A stretch of 39,845 nt of DNA from a virus, in IMG/VR virus record IMGVR_UViG_3300032241_001210, positions 1 to 39,845 of that record. One strand, written 5' to 3'. The stretch's first letter is position 1. Each line of letters starts with the position of its first letter. This document shows positions 5,075 through 38,180 of the stretch, in pieces. The translations under genes were made by a program, and so were the position numbers. The notes beneath the pieces were generated by a model, which was not told the origin of the DNA, made no database searches, and saw only the letters and a list, made by a program, of their open reading frames with translations.

Positions 5075-5102
5075 GAGTGGGTATCCAGGGGACGTCCCGG
5101 CC

Positions 5103-5131
5103 TTATTAGGCCATCTAACGGGCGTTGTCAA
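5103..5131 (-). promoter_or_regulatory. Leftward promoter candidate, TTGACA-N17-TAATAA
   Basis: On the minus strand TTGACA (5131-5126), 17 bases, then TAATAA (5108-5103). Its last spacer bases and -10 region (AGATGGCCTAATAA) closely match the promoter at 10823 (AGATGGTCTAACCA). The -10 lies in a perfect inverted repeat GGCCT-TATT-AGGCC (5099-5112), and another palindrome, GGGACGTCCC (5089-5098), lies at the predicted start. Transcription would run only about 55 bases to the terminator at 5041-5074. Confidence 0.45.
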
Positions 5132-5136
5132 CAATC

Positions 5137-5165
5137 TTGACACATGACGGGATATCCGTTAGTTG
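5137..5165 (+). promoter_or_regulatory. Rightward promoter candidate upstream of the portal gene
   Basis: TTGACA (5137-5142), 17 bases, then TAGTTG (5160-5165), a weak -10. Its -35 and that of the leftward promoter form an inverted repeat, TGTCAA-N5-TTGACA (5126-5142). The predicted start near 5172 is only about a dozen bases before the portal ATG and would fall in the AGAGGTG ribosome site, so the real start may differ. Confidence 0.3.
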
Positions 5166-5183
5166 CCTCTGCCAGAGGTGCTA

Positions 5184-7499: not shown

Positions 7500-7761
7500 T
7501 GCCGTGGCCCGCGTGTCCGCTTTGGCTTTGCATGTGCGAACCGGCCTGGAATCGGGACGGCACAAGCAATTTTGCCGGTTCGGGTTCAAGACCAGGGCGG
7601 AAGCGTTGGATCATTTCGTCCAGGCGGCCACGGCGCATTATGCGAAGCGGGCGGCGGATACGATCGTTTGGCGTAGCCCGCTACAGGTCCAATACCGCGA
7701 TAATGGCCAGGGCTGGGGATATTACGCATGGGTTGGGTTCGGCCGGGGCAAGCCATCGTGA
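7489..7761 (+). CDS. Small hypothetical protein, 90 aa
   Basis: ATG 7489 (MLNDAVARVSALALHVR) lies inside the portal end and is preceded by the strong site GAGGGGG. The protein looks like a small alpha/beta fold: a helical start, 'HKQFCRFGFKTRAEALDHFVQAA' in the middle and a Trp/Tyr-rich end 'GQGWGYYAWVGFGRG'. No membrane segment is predicted and no family is recognised. It overlaps the tiny membrane gene at 7758 by GTGA. Confidence 0.7.
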   Translation: MLNDAVARVSALALHVRTGLESGRHKQFCRFGFKTRAEALDHFVQAATAHYAKRAADTIVWRSPLQVQYRDNGQGWGYYAWVGFGRGKPS

Positions 7762-7850
7762 CCGGCATTATCCTGGCTTTGTTTGCCTCCGTTTTCTCAA
7801 TCGCCGTCATATGGTTGATCGCAACCACACCTGAGGACCCGCTGTCATGA
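7758..7850 (+). CDS. 30-aa single-pass membrane micro-protein
   Basis: A GTG start at 7758 overlaps the previous stop (GTGA), and the stop overlaps the next start as ATGA at 7847-7850. The peptide is one hydrophobic segment, 'IILALFASVFSIAVIWLIA' (residues 3-21), with a short polar acidic tail 'TTPEDPLS'. The two exact junctions and the clean transmembrane composition make it more than chance. It has no recognised homologue. Confidence 0.55.
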   Translation: MTGIILALFASVFSIAVIWLIATTPEDPLS

Positions 7851-8827
7851 CCGAATATAGTGCCAAGGAAATCCGTGCCGCCCGTAAGGCCAAAGCCGAG
7901 CGTATGGGTAGCGCGGGCGAGCATGGGAAGGTGGACGCCTCCGGATGGACGCCGCCCGAACCGCTGAACGCGGAGGGCAAGACGGGATTGCGTCCGGTTT
8001 CGCCGCGCCAGTACAAGCGAGGCGGTCATGTCGATGGTCATGAGGCGCATCACCACGCCGGACGAAAAGCGCGCAAAGCTGGCGGCGGCGTCAATGCTTA
8101 CATGAACCGCGACGGCAAGGAAGCGAACGCTGAGTTCGGCAAGCCTCATGTCGGCGGATACAAGCATGGCGGTCACGCGGACGAGAAAGAGGATCGTGCG
8201 CTGATTGATCGGATGGTCAAGAAAGAAGCGCGGACCGGTCGCAAGGATGGTGGGGAAGCCGGTCATTGGATATCTGGTGCCATCAAGCATTCCGGCGCGT
8301 TGCACAAGTCGCTTGGCGTGCCGAAGGGCAAGAAAATCCCCGAGAAGAAGTTGGAAAAAGCGGAGCATTCGCGCAATCCCAAAACCGCGAAGCGCGCTCG
8401 TCTGGCGGAAACGCTCAAGGGGATGCACCACGAGGAACGCGGCGGTCGGGCCAACTACGAAGGCGGCACGCGGCCGACCGGGGACAGGATCGCGCGCGCG
8501 TCTGGTGGTAAGGCCAAGGGCAAAACCAACATCGTGATCGCGGTCAATCCACATGGTGGGCAGGATGGCCAGATGATGGCACCGGGCGCCGGACCTGTGC
8601 CGCCGCCGCGTCCGCCTGTGCAGCCCGTTCCCGTCGCGCCGCCCGCTCAGGGGATGCCAATGGGTGGGATGCCGCCCGGTATGCCTCCGCAGATGCCGCC
8701 GGGTGCCATGCCGCCGGGCGGTATGATGCCGCGCAAGAAAGGCGGTCGTGTGCATACGCCCGCTGACATGACGGCGGGTGCCGGTGGCGCGGAAGGACGG
8801 TTGGAAAAAATCGCACTGCAACGCTGA
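7847..8827 (+). CDS. His/Gly/Lys-rich basic structural-type protein, 326 aa
   Basis: The start lies in an ATGA overlap. The protein is very basic and low in complexity. Gly-Gly motifs with Lys or Arg recur ('YKRGGHV', 'HHHAGRKARKAGGG', 'YKHGGHADEKED', 'ERGGRANYEGG', 'RKKGGRVHTP'), followed by a Pro/Met/Gly-rich stretch near residues 243-300. The 'HHHAGRKxRKAGG' block returns in the protein at 13750. Such proteins are common among virion genes of alphaproteobacterial podoviruses. A nucleic-acid-binding or head-internal role is plausible from charge, but nothing in the sequence proves it. Confidence 0.7.
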   Translation: MTEYSAKEIRAARKAKAERMGSAGEHGKVDASGWTPPEPLNAEGKTGLRPVSPRQYKRGGHVDGHEAHHHAGRKARKAGGGVNAYMNRDGKEANAEFGKPHVGGYKHGGHADEKEDRALIDRMVKKEARTGRKDGGEAGHWISGAIKHSGALHKSLGVPKGKKIPEKKLEKAEHSRNPKTAKRARLAETLKGMHHEERGGRANYEGGTRPTGDRIARASGGKAKGKTNIVIAVNPHGGQDGQMMAPGAGPVPPPRPPVQPVPVAPPAQGMPMGGMPPGMPPQMPPGAMPPGGMMPRKKGGRVHTPADMTAGAGGAEGRLEKIALQR

Positions 8828-9051
8828 TGCTGACGTTTGATCGCCGCGTTCAACGCAAGTGCGAAGAATTGATAAACGACCGGATCAAGCTCATTTCCGA
8901 GACGATCTTGGAAGGGATGCTTGATCCGGATCGTTATAAGGCTCTGACGGGTCAAATTAGGGGGCTGCGTGAAGCCCTTAACCTGTTTGAGGACGCGATG
9001 TCCATAGCAGAAGGAAAGCCGGATGTCTTACATAACGACGCTGAAACATGA
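8827..9051 (+). CDS. Small hypothetical protein, 74 aa
   Basis: The start ATG shares one base with the preceding stop (TGATG). The peptide is helical and charged ('DRRVQRKCEELINDRIKLIS', 'QIRGLREALNLFEDAMSIAE') and probably forms a two-helix hairpin, a form often seen in small head-region proteins next to portal genes. No membrane segment or known motif is present. Its 3' end overlaps the GroES-like gene by 29 bases. Confidence 0.7.
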   Translation: MLTFDRRVQRKCEELINDRIKLISETILEGMLDPDRYKALTGQIRGLREALNLFEDAMSIAEGKPDVLHNDAET

Positions 9052-9421
9052 TACTGATCCGCGTAAATTGCTACAGGATCAAATCGGGGACCTGTCGAGC
9101 ATTGAACTGTTCAACAACCAGGTCCTGGTGGCCGTTTATCAGCGGCCCGAGCGCACCCAGGGCGGCATTATCCTGACCGATCACACGCGCGGAGAGGACC
9201 AATATCAATCGAAAGTGGGGCTCGTGCTGAAACGTGGCCCGGCAGCGTTTGATGCCAATCCCGAAGACGATTGGTTTAAGGATCAGGTCGTGAATGACGG
9301 GGATTGGATCGTTTATCGGGCCTCGGATGGCTGGCCGATCACGATCCGGAAGACGCTTTGCCGGATTTTGCTGGACACGACGGTTCGGATGCGCATTCAG
9401 AACCCGGATGAGGTGTGGTGA
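9023..9421 (+). CDS. GroES-like (Cpn10 fold) phage protein, 132 aa
   Basis: The middle of the protein reads as a Cpn10-type beta barrel: 'NQVLVAVYQRPERTQGGIIL' (residues 32-51), then 'YQSKVGLVLKRGPAAF' and 'VNDGDWIVYRASDG', the usual order of co-chaperonin strands with the mobile loop between. Phages carry such proteins beside capsid genes, where they can replace host GroES or act as structural barrels. Here it sits between portal and scaffold-like genes, which suggests help in capsid folding or assembly. AAGGAAAG lies nine bases upstream of ATG 9023. Confidence 0.75.
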   Translation: MSYITTLKHDTDPRKLLQDQIGDLSSIELFNNQVLVAVYQRPERTQGGIILTDHTRGEDQYQSKVGLVLKRGPAAFDANPEDDWFKDQVVNDGDWIVYRASDGWPITIRKTLCRILLDTTVRMRIQNPDEVW

Positions 9422-10278
9422 TGACCGAAGAAACCACAGACATCGTTGTCGAGCACGCTGATAGCGCGCCGGAAACGCCCGCCACTCCCGAGGTTCCGGT
9501 TTTAAGTGCCGAAGAAGGCATTGAAGACCTGAAAAAACGGCTGGCAGAAGAAAAAGCCGCGCGTCAGGCGGCGGAACAGCGCGAATACGAAGCGCGCACG
9601 CAGGTTGTGGCGGCCAAAAGCGAAGTCGAAGACGCCAATCTGACGCTCATCAAGAACTCCATCGAGACCGTCAAGCGCGATCAGGCCATGGCCAAGGCGA
9701 ATTGGCAGGCCGCGATGGAATCGGGCGATTACAAGGCCGCGAGCGACGCACAGGAAGCGGGGCAGATCGCGGCGGCGCGTCTGTCGCGCCTTGAGGAAGG
9801 AAAATCCGCCGCCGAAAGCCGTCCAAAGCCGCAAACGCCGCGTGCGGCCGATCCGGTAGAGGCATTCGCCGCCACTCTCACGCCTCGTTCGGCGGCATGG
9901 GTGCGCGCGCATCCTGAATGCGTCCGGGATGCGCGTCTGAACGCGAAAATGATCGCGGCGCATAATGTGACGCAGGCCGATGGCATTCCGGCGGACACCG
10001 ATGAATATTTTCAGGAAATTGAAAATATCATGGGCTTCCGTAGGCAAGCACCTTCGGAACCGCAGGATGATCCGATGGCGGCGGCGGCGCAGGTTACGCA
10101 ACGTCGAGCCGCTCCCCCCGCCGCTCCGGTCTCCCGTGCTGGCATGAATGGCACCAAATCCAATGTCATCCGTCTGTCCGCCGATGAACGCGAGATGGCG
10201 TCCATGATGGGCATGACGGAACAGGACTACGCGAAAAACAAGGCCGATTTGATCGCGGCCGGTCGTTTGAGGAATTGA
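9421..10278 (+). CDS. Candidate capsid scaffolding protein, 285 aa
   Basis: ATG 9421 overlaps the previous stop by one base. The sequence is acidic at the start, then one long charged helix (residues ~38-130: 'IEDLKKRLAEEKAARQAAEQ' and onward, Ala/Glu/Lys-rich), a Pro-rich break, and a short C-terminal helical region ('LSADEREMASMMGMTEQDYAKNKADLI'). This is the typical look of scaffolding proteins, which template the procapsid and bind the coat by a small C-terminal domain. Its place just before the capsid genes agrees. No protease gene is visible nearby. Confidence 0.7.
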   Translation: MTEETTDIVVEHADSAPETPATPEVPVLSAEEGIEDLKKRLAEEKAARQAAEQREYEARTQVVAAKSEVEDANLTLIKNSIETVKRDQAMAKANWQAAMESGDYKAASDAQEAGQIAAARLSRLEEGKSAAESRPKPQTPRAADPVEAFAATLTPRSAAWVRAHPECVRDARLNAKMIAAHNVTQADGIPADTDEYFQEIENIMGFRRQAPSEPQDDPMAAAAQVTQRRAAPPAAPVSRAGMNGTKSNVIRLSADEREMASMMGMTEQDYAKNKADLIAAGRLRN

Positions 10279-10280
10279 AC

Positions 10281-10814
10281 ATGAGCGAAACCACAGAACC
10301 CAAGCGCGGCCCTGGCCGTCCCCCGCTGCGATCGGATATGCGTGTCGCGCCGTCTCGCGCCGAAGCTGACCGCCGGACCAAGGAAATCCTTGGTCATTTG
10401 GGCGATCTGGACCAAGGGACGGATGAATTCTACATCCCGGATGGCATTACGCCGGACGGGTGGACGTACGAATGGAAGCGTCGAACCGTCCTGAACCAGG
10501 AAGACCCGGCGTATACGGTGCAACTGGCCCGCATGGGCTGGGAGCCGGTCCCGACCGAGCGCCATCCTGAGATGATGCCGAAGGGCGGCGATCATCCGGT
10601 GATCGAGCGCAAGGGCATGGTCCTGATGCAACGACCCGAAGCCATCACCGAACGAATTCGGGATATGGATCGTCAGCGGGCGCGCGACCAGGTGCGGATG
10701 AAAGAAGAACAACTGTCCGCCGCGCCTCCGGGGCATTTTGACCGGACCAGTGATCGCCGGGTTCGGCCGAAAATCAACAAATCGTATGATGCGATGCCGG
10801 TCCCGGATGCGTAA
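10281..10814 (+). CDS. AT-hook-bearing hypothetical protein, 177 aa
   Basis: The N-terminus has 'KRGPGRPP' (residues 8-15), an AT-hook-like minor-groove-binding motif. The middle is a folded part with many aromatic residues ('DGITPDGWTYEWKRRTVL', 'YTVQLARMGWEPVPTERHPEMM'), and the end is a basic helix and tail. Proteins of this layout lie between scaffold and capsid genes in related phages, and their role is not known to me. The start at 10281 follows the preceding stop by two bases. It is the last gene before the 142-base promoter gap. Confidence 0.7.
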   Translation: MSETTEPKRGPGRPPLRSDMRVAPSRAEADRRTKEILGHLGDLDQGTDEFYIPDGITPDGWTYEWKRRTVLNQEDPAYTVQLARMGWEPVPTERHPEMMPKGGDHPVIERKGMVLMQRPEAITERIRDMDRQRARDQVRMKEEQLSAAPPGHFDRTSDRRVRPKINKSYDAMPVPDA

Positions 10815-10822
10815 ATAACATA

Positions 10823-10851
10823 TTGACACCCGTTGTCAGATGGTCTAACCA
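10823..10851 (+). promoter_or_regulatory. Promoter candidate for the capsid operon
   Basis: TTGACA (10823-10828), 17 bases, then TAACCA (10846-10851). The stretch before the -10 matches the leftward element at 5103-5131, which suggests one regulator or polymerase form. The -35 is part of an inverted repeat TGACA-N5-TGTCA (10824-10838). The gap then holds a GC-rich hairpin CCGCC-N5-GGCGG near 10869-10883 without a T-run. The leader to the gene at 10957 would be about 100 bases. Confidence 0.5.
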
Positions 10852-10956
10852 ACCCAGACATAGCACTCCGCCGCGATGGCGGGGTCCCTTCTTCCCCGGT
10901 CCTTAGTCCCGCGCGATGCGCGATGATGGGCTCTCTGTCACAGGAGAACCTCCATC

Positions 10957-11589
10957 ATGGCGAACATCTTGTCGCCGTTTGGGTTCCAGCACTATCAAGG
11001 TGGCGCGGGCGGTGTCCCCACTTTCGCGATGCAAAAGCGTCGCATTGCCTCGGGCAACTCAACCGCCATTTTCGCGGGCGATCCGGTCATGCCGGTTATC
11101 GGTCCCGCGACTGGTTATATCACGCAAGCCGCGGCGGGCACGACCACGCTGGCTGGTGTGTTCTGGGGATGCGAATACATCTCCGTTGCTCAGAAGCGTA
11201 AAGTCTGGTCGAACTATTGGCCCGGATCGGACGCCAATGGTGATGTGACCGCGTATGTCATCGATGATCCCAACTCGCGCTTCAAAGTGCAGGCCAGTGG
11301 GGCGTCTTTCTACAACACGTCGGCTTCGTCCAGTATCATTACGTCCCTGCCAATTGGGCAATATGCTCAGTTCACCATCGGCACTGGTTCCACCGCGAAT
11401 GGTCTGTCCGGTGCGTATCTTTCGTCTGTTGGAACGACCGTTACCTTCCCCTTCATCATCATCGATTATCTTTTCGATCCTCCGGGGCAGAACGGCACTG
11501 ATCCCACGACCAACTATCCGGTTGTGGTTGTCGGGTTCAACAACGAAATCCTGCGCAGCAACGGCGCTGGCCCAACTGGCATCAGCTAA
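10957..11589 (+). CDS. Head protein, possible capsid decoration or stabilising protein, 210 aa
   Basis: AGGAG lies a dozen bases upstream of ATG 10957. The protein begins 'MANILSPFGFQHYQGG' and is rich in Gly, Thr, Ser and aromatic residues with alternating hydrophobic stretches, the composition of an all-beta virion protein. No signal peptide or membrane segment is seen. It is the first gene after the promoter and lies directly before the major capsid gene, where decoration or minor head proteins are usual. The family is known to me only as a phage structural protein, so decoration is inference. Confidence 0.65.
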   Translation: MANILSPFGFQHYQGGAGGVPTFAMQKRRIASGNSTAIFAGDPVMPVIGPATGYITQAAAGTTTLAGVFWGCEYISVAQKRKVWSNYWPGSDANGDVTAYVIDDPNSRFKVQASGASFYNTSASSSIITSLPIGQYAQFTIGTGSTANGLSGAYLSSVGTTVTFPFIIIDYLFDPPGQNGTDPTTNYPVVVVGFNNEILRSNGAGPTGIS

Positions 11590-11602
11590 GGAGTAGGCAC
11601 CG

Positions 11603-12517
11603 ATGGCTGTCAATCTTTCTGCGATTAAAGACCTTCTTCTCCCCGGCCTCCGGGGAGTTGAAGGCAAATACGAAATGATCCCGAGCCAATACGACAAAAT
11701 CTTCACCAAGCATGATTCGAAGATGGCTCTGGAACGCACCGCTGAAATGCGGTTCCTGGGTCTGGCTCAGCTTAAGACTGAAGGCGGTCAAACCGCGTTC
11801 GACAACGCGGCTGGCGAGCGCTTTGTCTACAACCAGGAACATGTGGAAATCGCTTTGGGCTATGCGATCACTCGCAAGGCCATTGACGACAACCTCTACA
11901 AGACGCAGTTCCACCCGTCGAACCTCGGTCTGATCGAAAGCTTCCAGCAGACCAAGGAAATCTACGGCGCGAATATCCTGAACAGCGCGCAGACCTACAA
12001 CACGGCCATCGCTGGCGACGGCGTGGCGCTGTGCAGCGTGGCGCATCCAATCGATGGGTCAACCATCGCCAATACGCCCGCGACGCAGGTGGATTTGAAC
12101 GAAGCGACGCTGCTTAACTCCATGGTCGCGGTTCGGACAAACTTTCGCGATCAGGCGGGGCTGAAAGTCTTCGCGCGGGCTCGCAAACTGGTGATCCCGC
12201 CGCAGCTTGAGCCGGTCGCGGTTCGTCTGACCAAGACGGAATTGCGTCCTGGCACGTCGGACAACGATGTCAATGCGATCCTCATGACGGCTGGCGGCTT
12301 GCCCGAAGGCTACATGACGAACGACTTCCTGACCTCGGCGTTCGCGTGGTTCCTGCTGACGAACATTGACGGCCTGTCCTACATGGAGCGCGTCAAGTTC
12401 GAGACAGACATGCAGGTCGATTTCGTGACCGATAACCTGTTGGTCAAGGGATATGAGCGTTATTCGTTCGCCTACTACAACTGGCGTGCGATTTACGGAA
12501 ACTTCCCGACCTCGTAA
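11603..12517 (+). CDS. Major capsid protein, 304 aa
   Basis: The shell-forming subunit. Early residues 'VEGKYEMIPSQYDKIFTKHDSKMALERTAEM' lead into 'HVEIALGYAITRKAIDDNLY' and 'LIESFQQTKEIYGANILNSA', followed by 'VALCSVAHPIDGSTIANTP' and 'KVFARARKLVIPPQLEPVAVRL'. This order is typical of a capsid-protein family of podoviruses and prophages with HK97-type shells. Length is normal for a coat without an attached scaffold domain, which fits a separate scaffold gene at 9421. AAGGAG precedes the ATG by about eight bases. Confidence 0.9.
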   Translation: MAVNLSAIKDLLLPGLRGVEGKYEMIPSQYDKIFTKHDSKMALERTAEMRFLGLAQLKTEGGQTAFDNAAGERFVYNQEHVEIALGYAITRKAIDDNLYKTQFHPSNLGLIESFQQTKEIYGANILNSAQTYNTAIAGDGVALCSVAHPIDGSTIANTPATQVDLNEATLLNSMVAVRTNFRDQAGLKVFARARKLVIPPQLEPVAVRLTKTELRPGTSDNDVNAILMTAGGLPEGYMTNDFLTSAFAWFLLTNIDGLSYMERVKFETDMQVDFVTDNLLVKGYERYSFAYYNWRAIYGNFPTS

Positions 12518-16530: not shown

Positions 16531-18837
16531 ATGCCTCACGCCGCGCTGAAACTGATCCCAGGCGTTAATCAGAACGAAACCCCCGCGCTCAATCAGGCGT
16601 CGGTTTCATCATGCAATCTGATCCGGTATTTCTATGATCCGACCGGCGTCGGTCTGGTCCAGAAGTTGGGCGGATGGAAGACATTTTACCCGTCTCCCAC
16701 CAATACGATCACGCGGGCATTGCTGGCCTGGGAAGACACGAACGCGGCGACGCATCTCGCGGCTGGTAATCAGGCGAATACCAGCACGCTCGCGGCTGAA
16801 CTCGATGTCATCACCAATGGGAATTTGGTGAATGTCACGCCTCGCACCGCGACTACCAATCCATCAGTCAATTTCGCGACCACGGGTGGAAGCCCGAACG
16901 TCATCATCACGGATGCGACATTCACGGCGTCGAATTATGATAGCGTGTATATTTCCACGCCAGTCAGCGTTGGCGGTCTTGTCCTGTTTGGGTTTTATCC
17001 AACAATCGGGTTGACTTCCACGACGTATGAAATTCAGGCCACAGACGCTTTGGGGAATTTGCTAAATGCCCCCACCACGGCGACGGGCGGTGCTGTTCCT
17101 CAATTCACGACCGTTTCATCGTCTTCTGTTGTGACGGTCACGTTGGCGAACCATGGTTATTCCGTGGGCTCGACCTTCCCGGTTCTGATCCCGGCGTCCT
17201 TCAATGGTGTTGTGCTGTCCGGGAATTACACGGTGCAATCCGTGACCAGTTCCAGTTTCACCATTCAGGCTACAACCTTAGCTTCGGCTTCATCCTCGGT
17301 CTACCTGAACAATAGCAACGCCAATTTCGTCTATTACATCGGGACTGGCCCTATTCCGATGGGATCGGGATATGGTGTGGGAGGGTATGGGCGTGGCGGG
17401 TATGGGTCAGGCACGGCGGTCGTGCCATCGATCGGTGCGGCGATCTACACGAACGATTGGACGTTGGACAATTTCGGGCAAATCCTGGTTGCGTGCCCCG
17501 TCCCGGCGCTCAATATCGTTTTGACGACGACGGCCATGTCAGGGAACGGCACGACGGCGACATTGACCTTCGCGCAAAATTTCACGATCCCGGTAGGGAA
17601 TGTCATTCAGGTCGCAAGTGGGTCGCCGGTTGGGTATAACGGGACATATTATGTGACGGCTTCATCCCCTGGATCTGTTTCATACGCCAATGCGACCACG
17701 GGCGCGCAGACTTCGCCCGCGACGATAACGGCGAACGACCCGGCGTCTGGACCTATTTTCCAATGGGACCCCACGAGCGGCAATCCATTCGCGACGGTCA
17801 TGACTTACGCGCCTCCGGTCAATGATGGCGTTTTTGTCGCCATGCCACAACGGCAAATCGTGGCGTGGGGGTCAACGCTGACAGGCGTGCAAGACCCGCT
17901 TCTGATCCGGTGGTGCGATGTCCAGAACTACAATCAATGGATCGCGCAATCGACCAATCAGGCCGGGTCTTTTCGCCTTTCCAAGGGATCGCGGATCGTC
18001 GGATGTTTGCAAGGACCACAGCAAGCCTTGGTCTGGACGGATTTAGCCGTATGGTCGATGCAATACGTTGGTCAGCCGAATGTCTATTCGTTCAATGAAA
18101 TCGCGGTCGGGTGCGGGCTGATCGGCCGGAAGGCGTCGGGGACATTTAACGGCGTGGTCTATTGGATGGGGCAAAGCCAATTCTTCCAGCTTTCCTCGGG
18201 CGGCGTCGCGCCAATCCCATGCCCGGTCTGGGATGTGATCTTTCAACAGTTGGATATGACGAACGTCAATAAAATCCGGGTCGCGGTCAATTCCCGGTTC
18301 GCGGAAGTGGCGTGGTATTACCCCACGTTGACATCGGGCGGTGAAGTGGCCGCCTACGTGAAATATAACACGGTGTTGAACGCATGGGATTTCGGCGCGT
18401 TGGGGCGTTCGGCCTGGATCAACGAGAGTGTGTTTGGTCCGCCGATTGGTGCCGATCCGGTGACGCGGTATATTTTCCAGCACGAAACGTCACCGGATGC
18501 CAATGGGACCGTGATGAACTCGTGGTTCCAGACCGGGTATTTCGCGTTGCAAGAAGGCGATATGCAAGCGTTTGTCGATCAGGTATGGCCAGATGCGAAA
18601 TGGGGTTATTATAACGGGGTGCAATCCGCGACGCTGAATATCACGTTCTATGTGGTTGATTATCCTGGCGCGACGCCGGAGGTATATGGTCCATTTTCGG
18701 TCACGCAGGCGACGACTTATTTCAATCCGCGCTTCCGTGGCCGATTGGTATCGATCATGATCGGCGGCACTGACCTCGGATCGTGGTGGCGGACAGGTAA
18801 CTTGCGGTATCGCATTCAGCCTGATGGGAAGTATTGA
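16531..18837 (+). CDS. Tail nozzle / packaged-DNA stabilisation protein (P22 gp10-like), 768 aa
   Basis: The N-terminus 'LKLIPGVNQNETPALNQASVSSCNLIRYFYDP', then 'VQKLGGW', is the hallmark of the phage stabilisation family. In P22 this is gp10, a tail hub that closes the channel and carries fibres. The body alternates beta strands and aromatic loops, as expected for a beta-propeller. Two inserted beta-sandwich-like modules share 'VxxGNYTVxSV / YNGTYYVTAS' patterns (about residues 195-260 and 330-395). A Gly/Tyr-rich loop 'GYGVGGYGRGGYGSG' lies near residue 285. GGGGGTGATG precedes the start. Confidence 0.85.
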   Translation: MPHAALKLIPGVNQNETPALNQASVSSCNLIRYFYDPTGVGLVQKLGGWKTFYPSPTNTITRALLAWEDTNAATHLAAGNQANTSTLAAELDVITNGNLVNVTPRTATTNPSVNFATTGGSPNVIITDATFTASNYDSVYISTPVSVGGLVLFGFYPTIGLTSTTYEIQATDALGNLLNAPTTATGGAVPQFTTVSSSSVVTVTLANHGYSVGSTFPVLIPASFNGVVLSGNYTVQSVTSSSFTIQATTLASASSSVYLNNSNANFVYYIGTGPIPMGSGYGVGGYGRGGYGSGTAVVPSIGAAIYTNDWTLDNFGQILVACPVPALNIVLTTTAMSGNGTTATLTFAQNFTIPVGNVIQVASGSPVGYNGTYYVTASSPGSVSYANATTGAQTSPATITANDPASGPIFQWDPTSGNPFATVMTYAPPVNDGVFVAMPQRQIVAWGSTLTGVQDPLLIRWCDVQNYNQWIAQSTNQAGSFRLSKGSRIVGCLQGPQQALVWTDLAVWSMQYVGQPNVYSFNEIAVGCGLIGRKASGTFNGVVYWMGQSQFFQLSSGGVAPIPCPVWDVIFQQLDMTNVNKIRVAVNSRFAEVAWYYPTLTSGGEVAAYVKYNTVLNAWDFGALGRSAWINESVFGPPIGADPVTRYIFQHETSPDANGTVMNSWFQTGYFALQEGDMQAFVDQVWPDAKWGYYNGVQSATLNITFYVVDYPGATPEVYGPFSVTQATTYFNPRFRGRLVSIMIGGTDLGSWWRTGNLRYRIQPDGKY

Positions 18838-21629
18838 TGGCCAGCCTTGATGACATTCTGACCACTCAGAAAAATGGCGTCATCGCGATCAATGGTATCG
18901 TGAAGCAGTTGAATGCGCTCGCCATTACTTCGCAATGGACGGCGGGCACGGTGTCGGCCATTGGCGCAAACCTGACGATTACATCTGGCACGCTTATTTC
19001 CAATGGTGGGACTGGCACGGTTACGCAGGTTAATACGACGGGTTCGGGGATTACGGGTGGCCCTATTGTTGGCGTTGGAACGCTGGCGGTGGCGTGGAAC
19101 GCGGGCAGTGTCGCGGCAATCGGCAGCGGATTGACATTATCATCTGGCACGCTTTCGGCATCGACCGCATCGGGTAGCGTTACCAGTGTGCAGGTATCGG
19201 GTGGCTCCACGGGTTTGACAACTTCTGGCGGTCCTATCACGACTTCCGGCACGATTACCTTTGGCGGCACACTCGGAACGGGTTATGGCGGAACTGGATT
19301 GACCGCGCTTGGAACGGGTGTCCAAACGGCGCTCGGAACGGCGTTAAATGGGACTGGGGCTTTCGCGGGGACCACGAACCCGATCCTTGTGACGCCTACT
19401 CTCGGGGCGGCGGCGGGCACATCTCTGACGATATCGGGGTCTATTCTGGTCGCTGGCAATTCCGTGTTGTCATCGGTCACGGCGGTCGCGGCGGTAACGG
19501 GCACTCCCTCCGCCAGCAATTTCCTTCGTGGTGATGGCACATGGTCCGTGCCATCGGGGACCAGCGTTACCAGTGTGCAGGTATCGGGTGGCTCCACGGG
19601 TTTGACAACTTCTGGCGGTCCTATCACGACCTCGGGCACGATTACCTTTGGGGGCACGCTTGGGACGGGGTATGGCGGCACAGGTCTGACCGCGCTTGGA
19701 ACGGGTGTCCAAACGGCGCTCGGAACGGCACTAAATGGGACGGGCGCGTTCGCGGGGACCACGAACCCGATCTTTGTGACGCCTACTCTTGGCGCGGCAT
19801 CAGGCACGTCTCTGACGCTATCTGGCTCGCTTTTGGTTGCTGGCAATCCAGTGCTGTCATCGGTTACAGCCGTCGCGGCGGTGACTGGCACGCCATCGGC
19901 CAGTAACTTCCTGCGCGGCGATGGAACGTGGTCGGTTCCGGCGGGAACGGGCGTCACAAGCGTTGCTCAGACGTTTACGGGCGGTCTGATTTCGGTTGCC
20001 GGTTCGCCCATTACGACCTCGGGCACGCTGGCCCTGACAGTCGCGGGGACGAGCGGCGGCGTTCCGTATTTCAACAGCGCCAGCACATGGGCGACATCGG
20101 CCATCCTGGCCGCGAATGCGCTGATGATTGGCGGCGGGGCAGGTGTCGCGCCATCCACGACCACAACGGGAACAGGCGTCATCACAGCCCTGGGGTCCGC
20201 CGTCAGCGGCTCCGGTGGGTTGGCTCTGGTATCATCCCCGACACTGACGACACCCGCTCTTGGGGCCGCCACGGCAACCAGTGTCGTCGCGGCGAATGGG
20301 ATCATTTCGACCGGCACTTATGGCGGGACGTTCACGGATGGCCTTGTCCTTGATTATGCGTCGGGAACCGGACGGCTTAGCGTCGGGGCTTCGGATGGCC
20401 TGACGATTTACAACGGCGGCGTTGGCACCACGGCGTTATTCTCGCTTAGTTCTGGCGGGACAATTTCAACTTCGACCTGGAATGGTGGGATTATCACCGG
20501 AACCTATGGCGGGACCGGGGTGAATAATGGGGCCAATACGATTACGGTCGCGGGGAATTTGACCCATGCGGGTGCATTTGCCAGAACTCTGACCGCCACG
20601 GCCGCGACATCGCTTACGATGCCCACGAGTGGCACGATCATTTCGACCGTCACCAATATGGCAACAAACGCGGTGACGGGGACGCCATCGGCCAGCAATT
20701 TTTTACGCGGCGATGGAACGTGGAACTCTCCGGTTTCGACAACGGTCCTGACGGGTTCGCAATCGCAAACCGCGATCCCGGCAGGCGCGATTGGTGCGAT
20801 CGTGCAGCTTTGGGGGCCGGGTGGTGGTGGTGGCTCAGGGGCGAAGCAAAGCACTGCTGGGACGGCTTGCACGGGCGGCGGTGCGGGCGGGTCGGGGGCG
20901 TTTATTGAGCGTATCGTGACATTCGGGACCGCGACCGGTGAATTAAACGTATCTGGCGGATTTTACACGACCACGGTGCCAGCGGGTGGAACGGGTGGAG
21001 CAGCGATATCCGCGGCTGGAGCAGGCAATACCGGGGCCGCGCCATCGTCAAACACCAGCATTGTTTTCATTAATTCCGGGACCACAGCCATTGCGACCTT
21101 GGTTGCTTATGCCGGGGGGTTAGGCGGCCCAGGGAATACTTCGGCTCTCTCTGCTGGCGGTGGTGGTGGTGGGTTTGCTGCCGCGGCGAGTGGGACAACG
21201 GCCGGAACAAATGGCGGCGGCGCAGGCGGAAGCGGTGCCGCCGGAGGGAATGCGACATGGCCTTCCGCCGGTTCTGGGGGTGGCGGTTGTGGCGCTGCCG
21301 GTCCTGGACAGGCAGGGGGTAACGTCGCGTTTGGCGGCTCAGGTGGAGGCGGTGGCGCGGGCATAACCAGTGCGAATGCGGCGAGTTCATCTGGTATCAG
21401 CGGTTGGGCGAATAACGTCCAGGGCGCGACATCCAATCTCGCGGCCTTGTCTTTTGCGGGCGGCAATGGGGGCGCGGCTTCAACAACAGTCGCGGGTGGC
21501 GCGGGCGGTTCGCCTTTGATCTGTGGCGGCGGCGGCGGTGGTGGGGCCATATCTTCTACCAATACCACCACATCCGGCGCGGGCGGCACGGGCGGGGCCG
21601 GGCTCGCCATTATCAATTGGTTCTTCTGA
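18837..21629 (+). CDS. Tail fibre with tandem repeats and glycine-rich tip, 930 aa
   Basis: After a short N-terminal anchor (residues 1-40) come Gly/Thr/Ser-rich fibre repeats with 'YGGTGLTALGTGVQTALGTALNGTG' style linkers and three copies of 'TGTPSASNFLRGDGTW', a repeat common in phage fibres. From about residue 640 the sequence is a glycine-rich domain with long GGG runs ('GPGGGGGSGAKQ', 'AGGGGGGFAAAA') ending 'GLAIINWFF', like adhesin tips that bind host receptors. The ATG at 18837 shares a base with the nozzle stop. It should be the main receptor-binding fibre. Confidence 0.85.
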   Translation: MASLDDILTTQKNGVIAINGIVKQLNALAITSQWTAGTVSAIGANLTITSGTLISNGGTGTVTQVNTTGSGITGGPIVGVGTLAVAWNAGSVAAIGSGLTLSSGTLSASTASGSVTSVQVSGGSTGLTTSGGPITTSGTITFGGTLGTGYGGTGLTALGTGVQTALGTALNGTGAFAGTTNPILVTPTLGAAAGTSLTISGSILVAGNSVLSSVTAVAAVTGTPSASNFLRGDGTWSVPSGTSVTSVQVSGGSTGLTTSGGPITTSGTITFGGTLGTGYGGTGLTALGTGVQTALGTALNGTGAFAGTTNPIFVTPTLGAASGTSLTLSGSLLVAGNPVLSSVTAVAAVTGTPSASNFLRGDGTWSVPAGTGVTSVAQTFTGGLISVAGSPITTSGTLALTVAGTSGGVPYFNSASTWATSAILAANALMIGGGAGVAPSTTTTGTGVITALGSAVSGSGGLALVSSPTLTTPALGAATATSVVAANGIISTGTYGGTFTDGLVLDYASGTGRLSVGASDGLTIYNGGVGTTALFSLSSGGTISTSTWNGGIITGTYGGTGVNNGANTITVAGNLTHAGAFARTLTATAATSLTMPTSGTIISTVTNMATNAVTGTPSASNFLRGDGTWNSPVSTTVLTGSQSQTAIPAGAIGAIVQLWGPGGGGGSGAKQSTAGTACTGGGAGGSGAFIERIVTFGTATGELNVSGGFYTTTVPAGGTGGAAISAAGAGNTGAAPSSNTSIVFINSGTTAIATLVAYAGGLGGPGNTSALSAGGGGGGFAAAASGTTAGTNGGGAGGSGAAGGNATWPSAGSGGGGCGAAGPGQAGGNVAFGGSGGGGGAGITSANAASSSGISGWANNVQGATSNLAALSFAGGNGGAASTTVAGGAGGSPLICGGGGGGGAISSTNTTTSGAGGTGGAGLAIINWFF
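19176..19949 (+). repeat. Two tandem 387-bp repeats inside the fibre gene
   Basis: The units start at 19176 and 19563, a period of 387 bp or 129 residues. The first 68 bases of the two copies are identical and the rest differ mainly at codon third positions. Each unit ends with the 'GDGTW' motif; a further partial copy of the motif lies near 20680. The pattern implies duplication by homologous recombination and later drift. Confidence 0.85.
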
Positions 21630-27448: not shown

Positions 27449-29808
27449 TGGTTGATGATCCGATTGCTGGCATTCTGGGGTCTGACACAGCAAACGCCAC
27501 GAATGCGTCTGACGACCCTATCACGGGCATTCTGGGGACTGATACGGCTCAAGGCACAACTACCGTCAACCCGGAGCAAGCATCACGCCGTGCCATGAAC
27601 CCGACGCTTCGGGCGATTGACGCGACGGGGCGCGGGATCGCGAATGCCGTCCCGTTCATGAGCGACATCGCCGCTGCTGGCGATACCGCCGTAAGCTACT
27701 TGCCGCAATCCATCCGCCAATATATTCCGGGTGTCCCGACAAACGACCAATCCAGCGAAACGTGGTCGCAACGCTATTCGGAAAATCTCGCCCGGCAACG
27801 GAGTATCAATGCAACAGACGAAACCGATCTGCCTGTGGAAAGCTATGGAGGACAGTTCGCCGGGGCATTGGCACTCCCTGTTGGCGGCGTCAATAAAATT
27901 GCTAACTTTGCTTCTCGTTATGTTCCTTTGGCGGCTGCTCGTTCACTGGCTTCAGGCGCGGTAGGGGCTGGATATGGTGCTCTTTATGGCGCTGGTAGCG
28001 GCACTGATCTTGCTGATCGTGCGCAACGGGCAGAAACTGGTGCTCTTTATGGTGGCATTGGAGGCGCCATTGTTCCGGCTGCTACTGGCCTCATTGGGTC
28101 TGTGGTCTCTCCATTTGTTAACAAAGTAAGTCCCGCCGTCAGCAAGATTGGGAACGCCCTACAGAGAGATGTGGCGTCGGGCGCGGCCATGGCACCGGAG
28201 GACATCGCGGCGGCGCAGGCATCCGGTCAGCCGCTCGCGGTGGCCGATATTGGCGGTGAGGCGACGCGCGCTCTGGCGCGATCCGCCGCCAACCTTTCGC
28301 CCGAAGCAAGAGCGGCGCTTTCGAATACCGTTAATGACCGGTTCGCTCAGCAAGGGCCGCGCTTTTCATCGTTCCTTAAAGGGATGTTCGGGACCGATCT
28401 GAACAACGCCACCGCATTGACCGATCTGGCGGAAAAGTCAAAGGCCACGGTTGGGCCGCTGTATAAGCAAGCCTACGCCGAAGGCGAAAATGGCGTCTGG
28501 AATGATACGCTCGCCAATCTCGTGCAAGCGCCGGATATGCGCGGAGCCATCGCGGACGCGGCCAAAAAGGGCGCGAACACGCAAGTTTTACAGAAGATCG
28601 CTTCTGGCGCGTCTCCCGCTGAACCGCCGCCCATCATTCGCAACCCGTTTGTGTCGGATGCCGAGGGGAATCTCTCGCTGAAAGTCGGCGAGAACGGCCA
28701 GCCGATGACGCCTAATTTGCAGTTTTGGGATCAAGTAAAAAGAGCATTGCAAGATAAAATTGATAGCGCCCGCGCTTCAAGAAACATGGAAGACGCGCGT
28801 GATTTCGGGCAACTGAAATCCGCGCTTGTCAATCAACTTGACGCTGCCGTCCCAACATATGCTGACGCGCGCATGGGCGCATTTCAGAAGTTCGGGGCAG
28901 AAAATGCCTTGGAAGCGGGACAGAACTTTGTTGGGATGACCAAGTCTCTGGACATTGACCAGATGAAAGCATCCCTGGCGAAAATGTCGCCTGAACAGAA
29001 AAGTTTTTTCGCGCAAGGCATGGCGTCGCAGATCGCGCAAAAAGCGGAAAACTCGAGCGAGCGGCGCAACATCATCGGTCTGTTTGACAGTCCGGCGACG
29101 CGCGAAAAGATGCAGGCCGGTTTGGGCATGAATAACGCCAACCAGATTGAGGCATTCCTGCGCCGCGAAGCTATCATGGACCGGCTAAGGACCTCTCTTG
29201 GAAACTCCACCACGGCCCGGCAGTTGGCTGAATTGGGCATGGCGGGCGCGCCGGGTATCTTTGGCATGATCCGTCACGCCGCCGCCAATCCCACGGCGGG
29301 CGCAATCGCGGGTGCGACCACATCGTATTATAACAACGGCCTCGATCCGGTCGCGATGGCGAAAGGCGCGATGACTGGCGCGCTTGGCGGGCTGCTTGTC
29401 AAGCACGTGGAAGGACTGCATCAGGCCAGCGCACAACGGATTGGCGAACTCCTGGCGTCAACCAACCCGGAAGATGTGCGGCGGGCCATCCAGGCCGTTT
29501 CCCGGCAACCGAAACTGCTTCATGGCTTTCGCCGAATTGATCACGCTCTGACCTATACTGTCCCGGAGCGCATGGAAGACAACAGCGCAGAACCGGCTCC
29601 CGCTTACGCACACGCCTCCGGTGGCCGCGTATCTCGCGCCACGGGCGGACGCGCCGCCATGGATCATGAAGCCGCCGCGACGCGGCTGGTTAACCTCGTG
29701 GATCGAGTGCGAAAGAACCAGGCGACGCACACCAAGCCGCTTCTCAAACTTCCGGACGAAACCATCGCGCGGGCTTTGTCCGCCGCTAATCAGGCGATCG
29801 CATCATGA
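27448..29808 (+). CDS. Internal virion / ejection protein, 786 aa
   Basis: The N-terminus has a duplicated 13-residue segment ('DDPIAGILGSDTA' at 3-15 and 'DDPITGILGTDTA' at 22-34). Gly/Ala-rich amphipathic segments ('GAVGAGYGALYGAGSG', 'GALYGGIGGAIVPAATGLIGSVV') follow near 165-220 and could interact with membranes. The rest is mainly helical, with another Gly/Ala stretch near 600-650. The end has 'HASGGRVSRATGGRAAMDHE' and a helical tail 'LLKLPDETIARALSAANQAI' seen in ejection proteins of related phages. It probably forms a trans-envelope channel with the transglycosylase protein. Confidence 0.75.
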   Translation: MVDDPIAGILGSDTANATNASDDPITGILGTDTAQGTTTVNPEQASRRAMNPTLRAIDATGRGIANAVPFMSDIAAAGDTAVSYLPQSIRQYIPGVPTNDQSSETWSQRYSENLARQRSINATDETDLPVESYGGQFAGALALPVGGVNKIANFASRYVPLAAARSLASGAVGAGYGALYGAGSGTDLADRAQRAETGALYGGIGGAIVPAATGLIGSVVSPFVNKVSPAVSKIGNALQRDVASGAAMAPEDIAAAQASGQPLAVADIGGEATRALARSAANLSPEARAALSNTVNDRFAQQGPRFSSFLKGMFGTDLNNATALTDLAEKSKATVGPLYKQAYAEGENGVWNDTLANLVQAPDMRGAIADAAKKGANTQVLQKIASGASPAEPPPIIRNPFVSDAEGNLSLKVGENGQPMTPNLQFWDQVKRALQDKIDSARASRNMEDARDFGQLKSALVNQLDAAVPTYADARMGAFQKFGAENALEAGQNFVGMTKSLDIDQMKASLAKMSPEQKSFFAQGMASQIAQKAENSSERRNIIGLFDSPATREKMQAGLGMNNANQIEAFLRREAIMDRLRTSLGNSTTARQLAELGMAGAPGIFGMIRHAAANPTAGAIAGATTSYYNNGLDPVAMAKGAMTGALGGLLVKHVEGLHQASAQRIGELLASTNPEDVRRAIQAVSRQPKLLHGFRRIDHALTYTVPERMEDNSAEPAPAYAHASGGRVSRATGGRAAMDHEAAATRLVNLVDRVRKNQATHTKPLLKLPDETIARALSAANQAIAS

Positions 29809-35284: not shown

Positions 35285-35711
35285 TAGCACCGGGGGCGGG
35301 GATTGAACCCGCGACCCACGACTTCAAAGGCCGTTGCTCTACCGCTAAGCTACCCCGGATTGATGCGCGTTCAATCAGCTGCACGCCGCCATCCTTCTGG
35401 CGCATATTCGCGCTGGTTCCGAACCTCATAGACGCCATGACACGCACTAGCGTCTCGTGCGTGTCATGGTCGCGCAGGTGTTTCAGTTCGGTCGGTTCCA
35501 TCACTTCGAGGTAAGCGATGAACGCATTTGCTTCGTCGATGAACCGATCCGCGGCCCGGCTTTCGATAACGTGATGATGGCCGGTTTCGCTATGGGCAAG
35601 AATGTGGACGCCGCGCTCCGCGACGGCGGTTTTCAGTCCGGCCGGAACCGCATCGATGCGACGGATCATCAAATCACCCTGGAAAGACGGGCGAGTGGTA
35701 ACTTTCTTCAT
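35247..35711 (-). CDS. Conserved phage protein with C-terminus running through tRNA-Gln, up to 154 aa
   Basis: Residues 8-50 ('SFQGDLMIRRIDAVPAGLK' and 'GVHILAHSETGHHHVIES') match a small phage and prophage family that usually ends with a 'DTHE' segment and a short basic tail; 'RDHDTHETLVRVM' is here at about 80-92. From residue ~114 the frame enters the tRNA and finds a stop only at 35247, inside the convergent lysis gene. The last ~40 residues are therefore suspect. The natural end may have been replaced when the tRNA arrived, or tRNA processing may cut the message. The start overlaps the upstream gene by ATGA and has AGGAC upstream. Confidence 0.7.
   Translation of the reverse strand: MKKVTTRPSFQGDLMIRRIDAVPAGLKTAVAERGVHILAHSETGHHHVIESRAADRFIDEANAFIAYLEVMEPTELKHLRDHDTHETLVRVMASMRFGTSANMRQKDGGVQLIERASIRGSLAVEQRPLKSWVAGSIPAPGAITEPRRPAPSRP
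35288..35359 (-). tRNA. tRNA-Gln (anticodon TTG)
   Basis: A full cloverleaf folds on the minus strand: acceptor TCCGGGG/CCCCGGT (six pairs and a U-U mismatch at 1-72), D-stem GCTT/GAGC, anticodon stem ACGGC/GTCGT with loop CTTTGAA (anticodon TTG), five-base variable region, and T-stem GCGGG/CCCGC with loop TTCAATC. Length is 72 bases without CCA. G73 and a weak first pair are known identity traits of tRNA-Gln, which supports the call. The gene lies wholly within the 3' part of a protein frame on the same strand. Confidence 0.9.
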
Positions 35712-36829
35712 GTCCTGTGTTCCTTTTGTTTCAACAGGTCGGCGGGGATGTCGTAAGTCCAGGCGTTCGCGGCCAGCGCGGTCGGAATGTCGCTGGGAAC
35801 AGGCAGCGCGAATTGACGGCCTGTTCCACAGCGAGCGCGGAGGAAACGCTCACGCCCGCTGTCCGGTAGATTGACCTCAAGTAGTATACCAATTTCCGGA
35901 TCGGGATCGCGATCAATTTCGACCGCATCCAGTTCGTTCAGTATCCGATCCCATCCCAGCATTTCACACGCGGCCCGGCGCTGCTCAAGGTTTTCGGTCC
36001 GCAGCGCGATTGAGGCGGTAAGCGTCTCGGGATGTTCGATCCAATCTTCCGGGATGGTCGTCCCGTGCCAATAATAAAGAGACCATCCGTCCGGATAAGC
36101 GCACGCGGGTCCGGATGGGTTATGGAGACGGCCCTGGTCATCACGAATAATCGTTGCGTGCCGCTCAGAGACGAAACAAATGTCGCGGAAGGGGATTGTC
36201 CATCCCGCTGAGCGGGCAAGTTCCCACAGACCTTCGAGGCGTTGGGTTTCTTTTTTCAGTCCCACCACATCATGGAAGTAGCGATAAAAAGCAAGCCAAT
36301 TCGCTTCGTGTTGTCCATAGACGCTGTCCAAGACGCTGTCGCGGACGCTGTCCGAGACGCTGGTCGAGACGCTGGCGCGGACGCTGGCCAAGACGCTGGC
36401 GCGGACGCTATCCGAGACGCTGTCCCAGACGCTGGCCGAGACAGCGTCCCGGACGCTGGTCGAGATGCTGTCGCAGACGCTGTTCCAGACGCTGGCCGAG
36501 ACAGCGTCCCGGACGCTGGTCGAGATGCTGTCGCAGACGCTGTTCCAGACGCTGGCCGAGACAGCGTCCCGGACGCTATACCGGACGCTGTCCCCGACGC
36601 TGGCGGGCATTTTGAATAAAACGGCCCGCGTCAGCGCCATGCTCATCGGCGATCCGCACCACACGACACGAGGTGCCGCAAGCCCCGCGATTTCATACAT
36701 TTTCGCGATGGCGCGTTCCGCGCGCGGCCGGTCGGCGGGTTCGGTGCATAGCCTTATCGCGGTCCATTCCGCGACGTAATCGTCGAATTTGGCAATCTGC
36801 TCAGGCGTCAGGTGGTTGATTATCGTCAT
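35708..36829 (-). CDS. DUF6745-like protein with tetrapeptide repeats, 373 aa
   Basis: An N-terminal helical part (residues 1-75) leads into a repeat block (about 76-170) of four-residue units of the form x-S-V-x, such as 'SVRDAVSASVWNSVCDSIST'. The C-terminal part carries the DUF6745-type sequence: 'YGQHEANWLAFYRYF', 'FVSERHATIIRDDQGRLHNPSGPACAYPDGWSLYYWHGTTIPEDWIEHP', and ends 'ALAANAWTYDIPADL'. This domain is of unknown function and occurs in actinobacteria and phages. The repeat block may form a regular solenoid or serve as a variable-length spacer. AAAGGA precedes the start. No membrane segment is predicted. Confidence 0.8.
   Translation of the reverse strand: MTIINHLTPEQIAKFDDYVAEWTAIRLCTEPADRPRAERAIAKMYEIAGLAAPRVVWCGSPMSMALTRAVLFKMPASVGDSVRYSVRDAVSASVWNSVCDSISTSVRDAVSASVWNSVCDSISTSVRDAVSASVWDSVSDSVRASVLASVRASVSTSVSDSVRDSVLDSVYGQHEANWLAFYRYFHDVVGLKKETQRLEGLWELARSAGWTIPFRDICFVSERHATIIRDDQGRLHNPSGPACAYPDGWSLYYWHGTTIPEDWIEHPETLTASIALRTENLEQRRAACEMLGWDRILNELDAVEIDRDPDPEIGILLEVNLPDSGRERFLRARCGTGRQFALPVPSDIPTALAANAWTYDIPADLLKQKEHRT
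36320..36603 (-). repeat. 12-bp unit array with 60-bp higher-order tandem repeat
   Basis: Some 24 units of the type GACGCTGKCCNN follow one another in register, each encoding one x-S-V-x tetrapeptide on the minus strand. Within it, a 60-bp period is nearly perfect over about 2.6 copies (36425-36578). Such DNA readily changes length by slippage in whole 12-bp steps, which keeps the reading frame. Confidence 0.9.
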
Positions 36830-36852: not shown

Positions 36853-37347
36853 CTACTTTTCTTTCGTCATCCGCGCCAGAAAATCCCGCGCGACCACGGC
36901 CACGGGCAACGGTCTTGTATCGGTCTCAGGGATAACCGGCAACGCTTTGTCAGCGGTCAAATATTCCAGCATCCCCAAAACAGATTGCTCGGCCAGGATT
37001 TTCCGCAAGTCGCCGGGTTCAATCCCATTTTCGCCTTTAAGCGCGGTGGTGATTGTGCGATTGCCGCGCCGCGCGGTGGATCTGATGCGTGACCGGGCCG
37101 TCTCTCCGACTTTCGCCAGTTCGTTGACATTCAACCGGCGATACCCTTGGCCGCGGATGCAGGCGAATGCCGCGCCGCTTTCACGTTCGGCGACGCGCAT
37201 CGCCCGATATAATATCCATCGGTGCGCCTGGATGTCGCGGCCAATGACATTTGTCATGGCGTTGAAAGTAACCATTTCCCCGCGTGGCGTTGCGCAAAGG
37301 AAGTCAGCCAGTCTCCGGGTTTCGGCGTGCAGATCAAGAGCGATCAT
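36853..37347 (-). CDS. Hypothetical protein with winged-helix-like N-terminus, 164 aa
   Basis: ATG 37347 is chosen because the pentamer-array leader with AGGAC ends just upstream; the frame continues open through the array only by chance. Residues 1-70 ('LHAETRRLADFLCATPRGEMVTFNAMTNVIGRDIQAHRWILYRAMRVAERESGAAFACI') resemble a winged-helix DNA-binding domain. The C-terminal part is helical and ends 'VARDFLARMTKEK'. A transcription factor or DNA-end protein is possible. The family is seen in phage early or accessory operons; its role is not known to me. Confidence 0.7.
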   Translation of the reverse strand: MIALDLHAETRRLADFLCATPRGEMVTFNAMTNVIGRDIQAHRWILYRAMRVAERESGAAFACIRGQGYRRLNVNELAKVGETARSRIRSTARRGNRTITTALKGENGIEPGDLRKILAEQSVLGMLEYLTADKALPVIPETDTRPLPVAVVARDFLARMTKEK

Positions 37348-37350
37348 GTT

Positions 37351-37470
37351 GTGTTGTCCTGTTGTGTGGAGTGAGGTGTAGTGTTGTGGCGTGACGTGAG
37401 GTGGAGTGTTGTGCCGTGGTGTGAGGTGGAGTGTTGTGCCGTGGTGTGATGTGCTGTGACGTGACGTGAC
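37351..37470 (-). repeat. Pentanucleotide array A: 24 tandem GTGNN units
   Basis: The plus strand reads as 24 consecutive pentamers in perfect register, 22 of which start with GTG while the last two bases vary. On the transcribed (minus) strand the array reads NNCAC. A 25-bp block (five units) occurs twice in tandem at 37396-37445. One of the two deviant units is the AGGAC that serves as ribosome site for the gene starting at 37347. The array fills the whole space between the gene at 37476 and that start. Confidence 0.95.
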
Positions 37471-37475
37471 GCTAC

Positions 37476-38072
37476 TCAGGCCGTCAATTTGCGATTGTCG
37501 GCCCAAAGTAGTTTATCCAACCGGAACCGGCCGTTGCTGCCCATGTTTTGAGGGCGATACTGGCCAATGCCGATAAAGAGGCCCGCGAGTTCGATCATCT
37601 CGCGGAAAATCTGCTCAGTGATGATCGGGTCCAGAATGTAAACCTCGAACGTGGTTGACCATCCGGCGGGAATGGTGGGGAAGCGGCGCATGACCCGCTT
37701 GCCAGACCCGCGCACACCGTCCGCGTTTACGGAGACCGTATTACAAATGACGGTGTCAGGATCGGTATCCAGCGACGGGTTGCCGGGGAACATGACCCCG
37801 CTCGTAAATTTGGCGGTCCAGGTTGCCTTGCCCTGGCCAGGGATTTGACGCTTGGAATATTTGGCGGCGTCCGCGATGCACTGATGGACCGCGCGAGCCG
37901 GAATGACGACGGTGCGCTTCCCGTCGTGGGTTTCGGTGGTCATTTTAGACCGCCAAGTGCGAATGTCATAATCGTTCGGCCCTTCTCCTTCGAGACGGGA
38001 TTCGTCATGTTGTCGGCTTTGGCTGTAGGGCGAAGCGCCGACAAGCGTAACGGTGGCGATGGAGGCTTGCAT
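37476..38072 (-). CDS. Conserved phage hypothetical protein, 198 aa
   Basis: ATG 38072 follows the pentamer-array leader with AGGAC at the same distance as in the next gene. The protein opens 'MQASIATVTLVGASPYSQSRQHDE', has 'DYDIRTWRSKM' and 'VVIPARAVHQCIADAAKYSK' in its first half, and ends with a Gly/Arg-rich pattern 'GLFIGIGQYRPQNMGSNGRF'. This order belongs to a phage protein family without assigned function. The glycine-rich end recalls RAMP-type RNA-binding folds, but I would not claim it. It is the first gene of the leftward operon and precedes the second array. Confidence 0.75.
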   Translation of the reverse strand: MQASIATVTLVGASPYSQSRQHDESRLEGEGPNDYDIRTWRSKMTTETHDGKRTVVIPARAVHQCIADAAKYSKRQIPGQGKATWTAKFTSGVMFPGNPSLDTDPDTVICNTVSVNADGVRGSGKRVMRRFPTIPAGWSTTFEVYILDPIITEQIFREMIELAGLFIGIGQYRPQNMGSNGRFRLDKLLWADNRKLTA

Positions 38073-38075
38073 ATT

Positions 38076-38180
38076 GTGTTGTCCTGTTGCGTGGTGTGAA
38101 GTGGAGTGTTGTGCTGTGTAGTGACGTGTTGTGCTGTTGTGTGGAGTGAGGTGTAGTGGCGTGAAGTGTCGTGCCGTGAA
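38076..38180 (-). repeat. Pentanucleotide array B: 21 tandem GTGNN units
   Basis: Twenty-one pentamers in register, 18 beginning with GTG. As in array A, the unit second from the gene is AGGAC on the minus strand and provides the ribosome site, with identical spacing to the ATG (38072). A run of units (GTTGT GTGGA GTGAG GTGTA) is shared with array A. The predicted transcription start lies just outside the far end of the array, so it makes up nearly the entire 5' leader. Confidence 0.95.

Follow-up and report, generated by a model that had tools for sequence, protein, structure and literature searches.

VIPR (Viral Interference Programmable Repeat) was described in a 2026 preprint (PMC13142463; bioRxiv 2026.04.26.720920), as a CRISPR-like weapon of phages against one another, with a phage-encoded ancestral RAMP protein (Vipr), a vap gene and vrRNAs of about 100 nt. 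The vrRNAs characterized there carry 9–16 GGY/NN repeats. Their NN pairs base-pair with double-stranded DNA, skipping one base between pairs, often at the codon wobble position, and the constant triplets do not pair with the target (PMC13142463). In type II vrRNAs the 3′ end is a structured, invariant tail, and for seven VIPR types the repeat is given as GGY/NN "or a related consensus" (PMC13142463). The natural targets given are satellites, prophages, and other VIPR systems (PMC13142463).

We analyzed a window of 39,845 nucleotides, the whole of IMG/VR virus record IMGVR_UViG_3300032241_001210. The virus is a tailed phage, and the locus of interest lies on the opposite strand near the end of the record, where two arrays of five-base repeats accompany two leftward genes. 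We consider it highly probable (about 0.92) that this is a phage-borne VIPR locus, read leftward in the order array B, vipr, array A, vap, and that its NNCAC tracts are vrRNA guides. The arrays are best read in this way because the product of the first gene (gpB) matches the Vipr of Escherichia phage SUSP1 and that of the second (gpA) is related to SUSP1 Vap1. Our own analysis established the arrays, the families to which the two proteins belong, and the conserved arrangement; it also gave targets, read with a one-base skip, for two relatives whose triplet is CGC.

With type II VIPR, represented by SUSP1 and a Pseudomonas fulva prophage, the window has in common homologous Vipr and Vap1 proteins, the vipr–vap order, and a phage home. 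In both, pentanucleotide arrays with a fixed triplet and a hypervariable NN lie beside the genes, and one-base-skip targets occur among the window's relatives. A Cas7-like Vipr, an adjacent vap, and tandem five-base repeats beside vipr identify the locus as VIPR, but not as the type II form, because the triplet in both arrays is CAC (CGC, GAC, GTC, or GTT in relatives) rather than GGY. The window differs further in the length of its arrays, 24 and 21 units, and in having them lead both vipr and vap with a Shine–Dalgarno sequence in phase. Whereas type II vrRNAs have a structured tail, the window's two RNA leaders fold no better than shuffled sequences (z −0.08 and 0.12).

Array A (37351..37470, minus strand) lies between the two genes and forms the leader of vap; array B (38076..38180, minus strand) is the leader of vipr. 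Both are predicted vrRNA guides. Each runs directly up to its leftward gene, with the ATG at 37347–37345 and 38072–38070, respectively, and the GTGNN units read as NNCAC in the sense of these genes. The sequence-only reading, made before any database search, had described 24 and 21 units in phase with three nearly constant and two almost free bases, and this description proved accurate. GT is present in 24/24 units of array A and 21/21 of array B, the third base is G in 22/24 and 18/21, positions 4 and 5 are mixed, and the phase is unbroken in both. The arrays score 21.4 and 17.1, compared with at most 3 in 60 first-order Markov resamples of the window, and no further GTGNN array exists on either strand of the record. 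The variable dinucleotides are GT GT GT AG AT AC GG AA TC CT AC GG AA TC CT GT GC AA TA CT TC AC AG AA in array A and, 5′ to 3′, TT GG GA TT GC TA CT TC AC AG AA GT TA AG AA TC TT AC GC AG AA in array B. The former contains an internal five-unit duplication (AC GG AA TC CT), indicating that slippage has contributed to array A.

The 3′ ends of the two arrays share a common setting. A Shine–Dalgarno-like AGGAC unit stands in phase within each (37356..37360 in array A and 38081..38085 in array B, both minus strand). It had been placed at an equal distance from the start codon in the two leaders, correctly so, because AGGAC is followed by AACAC AA[C/T] ATG in both. Recurring array ends, comparable to this shared AGGAC AACAC AA, are also seen in relatives. 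A transcription start had further been predicted at the far end of array B; a consensus scan limited to sigma-70-type promoters gave this no support, finding no promoter-like site there.

The vipr gene (37476..38072, minus strand) encodes gpB, a Cas7-like RAMP of 198 residues identified by profile match, hhalign, and its AF2 fold. Among solved proteins, the gpB profile has a sole convincing match, SUSP1 Vipr (PDB 36pp chain D, E 4.7e-7), which the window gpB also finds as a single sequence (E 4.7e-4). Aligned by hhalign with the SUSP1 Vipr gene (28474–29061 of that genome), it gives 96.2% and E 2.3e-9. The AF2 model (pLDDT 93.4) has a Cas7-type RAMP fold whose best structural matches are Lactococcus lactis Csm3 (6xn3_F, Z 13.5, 172 residues) and type VII Cas7. 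The vap gene (36853..37347, minus strand) encodes gpA, a Vap1-like protein of 164 residues with a predicted winged-helix N-terminal part. Its family matches SUSP1 Vap1 (28031–28471, beside the Vipr gene; 92.8%, E 4.1e-7) and the gene that follows vipr in Pseudomonas phage LESphi2 (93.6%, E 2.2e-7) in hhalign. The AF2 model (pLDDT 93.7) has weak wHTH fold matches, and gpA looks like a winged-helix protein. Neither protein is recognized by NCBIfam or PADLOC.

The backbones of Class 1 CRISPR effectors have the same RAMP fold and form a protein filament on a guide RNA, as proposed here for Vipr. Their spacer is contiguous with a flip at every sixth base, whereas the window's putative guide consists of five-base units. 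A tandem-repeat scan found no CRISPR repeat–spacer array in the window, and we saw no cas gene among the window genes examined. A second point of comparison is TRAP (trp RNA-binding attenuation protein), a ring of 11 subunits whose RNA sites are triplets two bases apart, with period 5, in mRNA leaders. The window's leaders resemble such sites, but the best structural matches of the neighboring protein are Cas7-type RAMPs, and the dinucleotides of relatives match target genes. We dropped a TRAP reading of the arrays, given the Cas7 fold of gpB and its match to Vipr. The sequence-only reading had suggested a multiple site for an RNA-binding protein. This much holds, since the neighboring gene codes for a member of the Vipr family of Cas7-like RAMPs, and characterized members of that family bind such repeat RNAs. 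What it missed was the informational role that homology to VIPR predicts for the "free" dinucleotides, as a gapped guide read against DNA.

To see how general the arrangement is, we scanned IMG/VR for runs of eight GTGNN units. The scan returned 115 stretches, dozens of them with at least two arrays about 700 bases apart, and in many cases the downstream genes are homologues of gpB and gpA, with lengths of about 190 and 165 aa, respectively. This sample of CAC loci is partly biased because the GTGNN pattern itself was used to find it, and since such a search selects for the array, we made a second one with the gpB profile alone. Its 94 homologues form an array-unbiased set, and in 75 of them a period-5 array whose three constant positions are adjacent lies upstream, which bears out the expectation that such arrays precede the same two gene families elsewhere. 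The triplet in this set is CGC in 48, CAC in 18, and GGC in 7, followed by GAC or AGT. When arrays after the gene are counted as well, 93 of 103 distinct homologues have a clear array (CGC 45, CAC 36, GGC 6, GAC 2, GTC 2, GTT 1, GGT 1).

Besides forming leaders, the arrays of relatives lie downstream of vipr and between genes. Among Viprs with at least 150 nt of upstream sequence, 70/92 have an upstream array. Downstream, 68/83 Viprs have one within 700 nt after the stop codon. The median length is 14 units, compared with 9–16 in the vrRNAs characterized in the main text of PMC13142463. Some relatives contain several consecutive arrays, each with the same 3′ end. Eight array loci of relatives gave no Rfam match and hence contain no hammerhead ribozymes. 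In two loci (L034 and L028), arrays of 61–70 units keep their phase despite many deviant units (NN[CT][AG][CT]); they are much longer than any vrRNA in the main text of PMC13142463. In another locus, which has a vipr homologue (L058:1380-1900, minus strand of the locus), NNCAC blocks alternate with near-identical spacers of about 40 nt (CGGTATTGAGCTTATGAGATTTATCGCC...), a region in which Rfam finds nothing. Two deposited phages, LESphi2 (L230) and DSL-LC04 (L231), contain vipr genes that had gone unrecognized, with GGC or GGT arrays. The one in DSL-LC04 is annotated "helix-turn-helix transcriptional regulator"; the gene that follows it was considered as a vap and rejected, as it is not Vap1-like.

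If the arrays are guides, the NNCAC tracts would be transcribed as vrRNAs or vrRNA precursors. Copies of the Cas7-like Vipr would line up on this RNA, one per five-base unit, gripping the constant CAC and leaving the two variable bases of each unit exposed. The exposed bases would jointly pair with double-stranded DNA, at dinucleotides separated by one skipped base (NNx NNx NNx), the skip often falling at the codon wobble position. DNA binding, which the winged-helix Vap probably strengthens, would then silence a gene belonging to a competitor, whether phage, prophage, or another VIPR. For the window itself we infer transcription and processing of the arrays, Vipr binding to the CAC units, a guide function of its own arrays, and repression.

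Each array in the loci that contain VIPR was interpreted as a gapped guide and searched against all the DNA retrieved. Only one guide rises above the rest when one base is skipped, scoring 26 against at most 18 for shuffled guides; readings with a skip of 0 or 2 give no signal above shuffles. This guide is the array after vipr in a Rhodospirillales MAG (L145). It matches the vipr gene of another locus (L211) over 13 consecutive codons, with 26/26 guide bases, in frame and with the skipped base at the wobble position. Against the vipr of a third locus (L149) it has one guide-base difference, and against L145's own vipr three, all in arginine codons.

The second guide with a target is the leader array immediately preceding vipr in Paracoccus litorisediminis (L144). 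This guide has 2 matches in 125 Paracoccus genomes, where reversed-pattern and two-base-skip controls have 0 each. Both matches extend to 11 units (22/22 bases), in frame with the skip at the wobble position, and by our own arithmetic about 5e-5 chance matches of 22/22 are expected in these genomes. The target is a gene for the large terminase subunit (Pfam GpA_ATPase and GpA_nuclease), and the two target stretches differ from each other at skipped wobble bases only. Leader arrays of this clade can therefore be guides against rival prophages, and array B occupies a position analogous to that of the P. litorisediminis guide. The two predicted targets, a rival vipr and the terminase of a rival prophage, independently support the one-base-skip rule and a role in warfare between phages, and they come from systems outside those characterized in the main text of PMC13142463.

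Both of these arrays have the CGC triplet. Other CGC guides that we tried gave no target; three further loci (L010, L142, and L148) and a second P. litorisediminis guide yielded either none or a single match, as frequent as in the reversed control. With the guides of the window itself, four exact nine-unit scans of IMG/VR returned 0, 0, 0, and one chance-like match. That single match, 18/18 in locus L232, was rejected as chance because it does not extend on either side and its skip does not fall at the wobble position. No target appeared when parts of array B were compared with 299 alphaproteobacterial genomes, and parts of array A with 385, drawn around a Roseomonas relative, or when the window guides were compared with 98 VIPR-bearing records. 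The best scores for a self-target in the window are at chance level, and peptide readings of the guides find nothing in PHROGs. Because the other CAC arrays tested likewise gave no target, the skip rule is supported here in CGC relatives only, and a guide function for CAC arrays accordingly rests on homology and on the CGC relatives.

The matches of relatives bear on whether the arrays are instead autoregulatory leaders and nothing else. By such TRAP-like logic, Vipr would coat the NNCAC units, mask AGGAC, and repress translation of vipr and vap, and the NN would hold no information. The placement of the arrays fits this idea: among relatives the array before vipr ends a median of 26 nt from the start codon, and AGGAC is an in-phase unit of both window arrays. 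Nevertheless, many arrays lie downstream of, or far from, start codons, and the guides of relatives match rival genes in phase and with wobble skipping, as free spacers would not. We regard autoregulation as the sole function as improbable, although it is compatible with guide function as a second role.

The remaining explanations fare worse. A ribosome standby or translation-enhancer tract working without a dedicated protein would suit CAC-rich RNA that has almost no predicted structure and precedes start codons. It leaves unexplained the near-exclusive link to vipr, the arrays after genes, the period of 5 with lineage-specific triplets, and the targets of relatives, and we give it very little credence. 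Much the same holds for a recent, functionless expansion of the microsatellite type, which could account for the duplication inside array A and for those GTGNN arrays in IMG/VR that lie away from any vipr. Here, the dinucleotides are nearly random, yet triplet and phase are kept, and the suggestion of a random expansion absent from relatives is contradicted by the same arrangement recurring, with other triplets, on deeply diverged branches of the protein tree. A DNA-binding array, whether an iteron or a DNA-coating site with two units per turn, might serve a winged-helix protein such as gpA is predicted to be, but it is most unlikely given that the arrays have a consistent orientation to transcription (265 sense, 3 antisense) and that the triplet correlates, though weakly, with a G-loop residue of the RNA-binding RAMP. 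Ribosome standby, translation enhancement, and DNA coating had all been put forward from the sequence, and none gained positive evidence.

Within the preferred reading, that of vrRNA guides, the variety of triplets deserves attention. On a tree of 101 Viprs the triplets cluster (21 changes versus 47 in shuffles), yet there are several switches, and the window Vipr groups with mostly CGC alphaproteobacterial Viprs. Residue 171, in a glycine-rich loop (GIG-Q-YRP in the window Vipr), is arginine in 45/45 CGC Viprs. All 18 Viprs that have Gln171 and a called triplet are CAC; the remaining CAC Viprs have Arg171 (14) or Ala171 (3). Arginine reading G and glutamine reading A is a classical pairing. 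In a comparison of independent branches, 3–4 pairs agree and 0 are opposed (p 0.125–0.25). Because so few independent pairs cannot reach significance, we keep the link as a lead: a role for residue 171 as triplet reader is suggestive only, though testable.

We tentatively propose a combined model, which we think possible but doubtful. The guide RNA would double as the leader of the mRNAs that encode its own effectors, and Vipr on the NNCAC units would hide the in-phase AGGAC, so that guide-bound copies adjust the synthesis of more. The triplet would be exchangeable, with residue 171 of the G-loop as its reader: Arg would recognize the G in CGC and Gln the A in CAC, so that related phages would have VIPR "dialects" independent of one another. 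If the dialects and the role of residue 171 are real, they explain how a RAMP distinguishes its own scaffold RNA from other such RNAs and provide several programmable DNA binders that are mutually orthogonal. More broadly, a hitherto unexplained repeat becomes a readable guide code, and VIPR, described from GGY systems, is extended to other triplets. Possible novelties are the use of guides to lead both genes with an in-phase ribosome site, the triplet variety together with a residue that may read it, and both targets.

Elsewhere in the window, genes for the large terminase, portal, and major head protein lie within 1686–12517. Two 387-bp direct repeats (85% matches) occupy 19176–19963, inside a long rightward ORF (18834–21629) that has no Pfam match. 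Adjoining the VIPR locus, a leftward gene (35708–36829) contains a 12-bp unit repeated imperfectly about 24 times at 36319–36602. Where this repeat region ends, a DUF6745 domain (Pfam E 3e-37) of the encoded protein begins.
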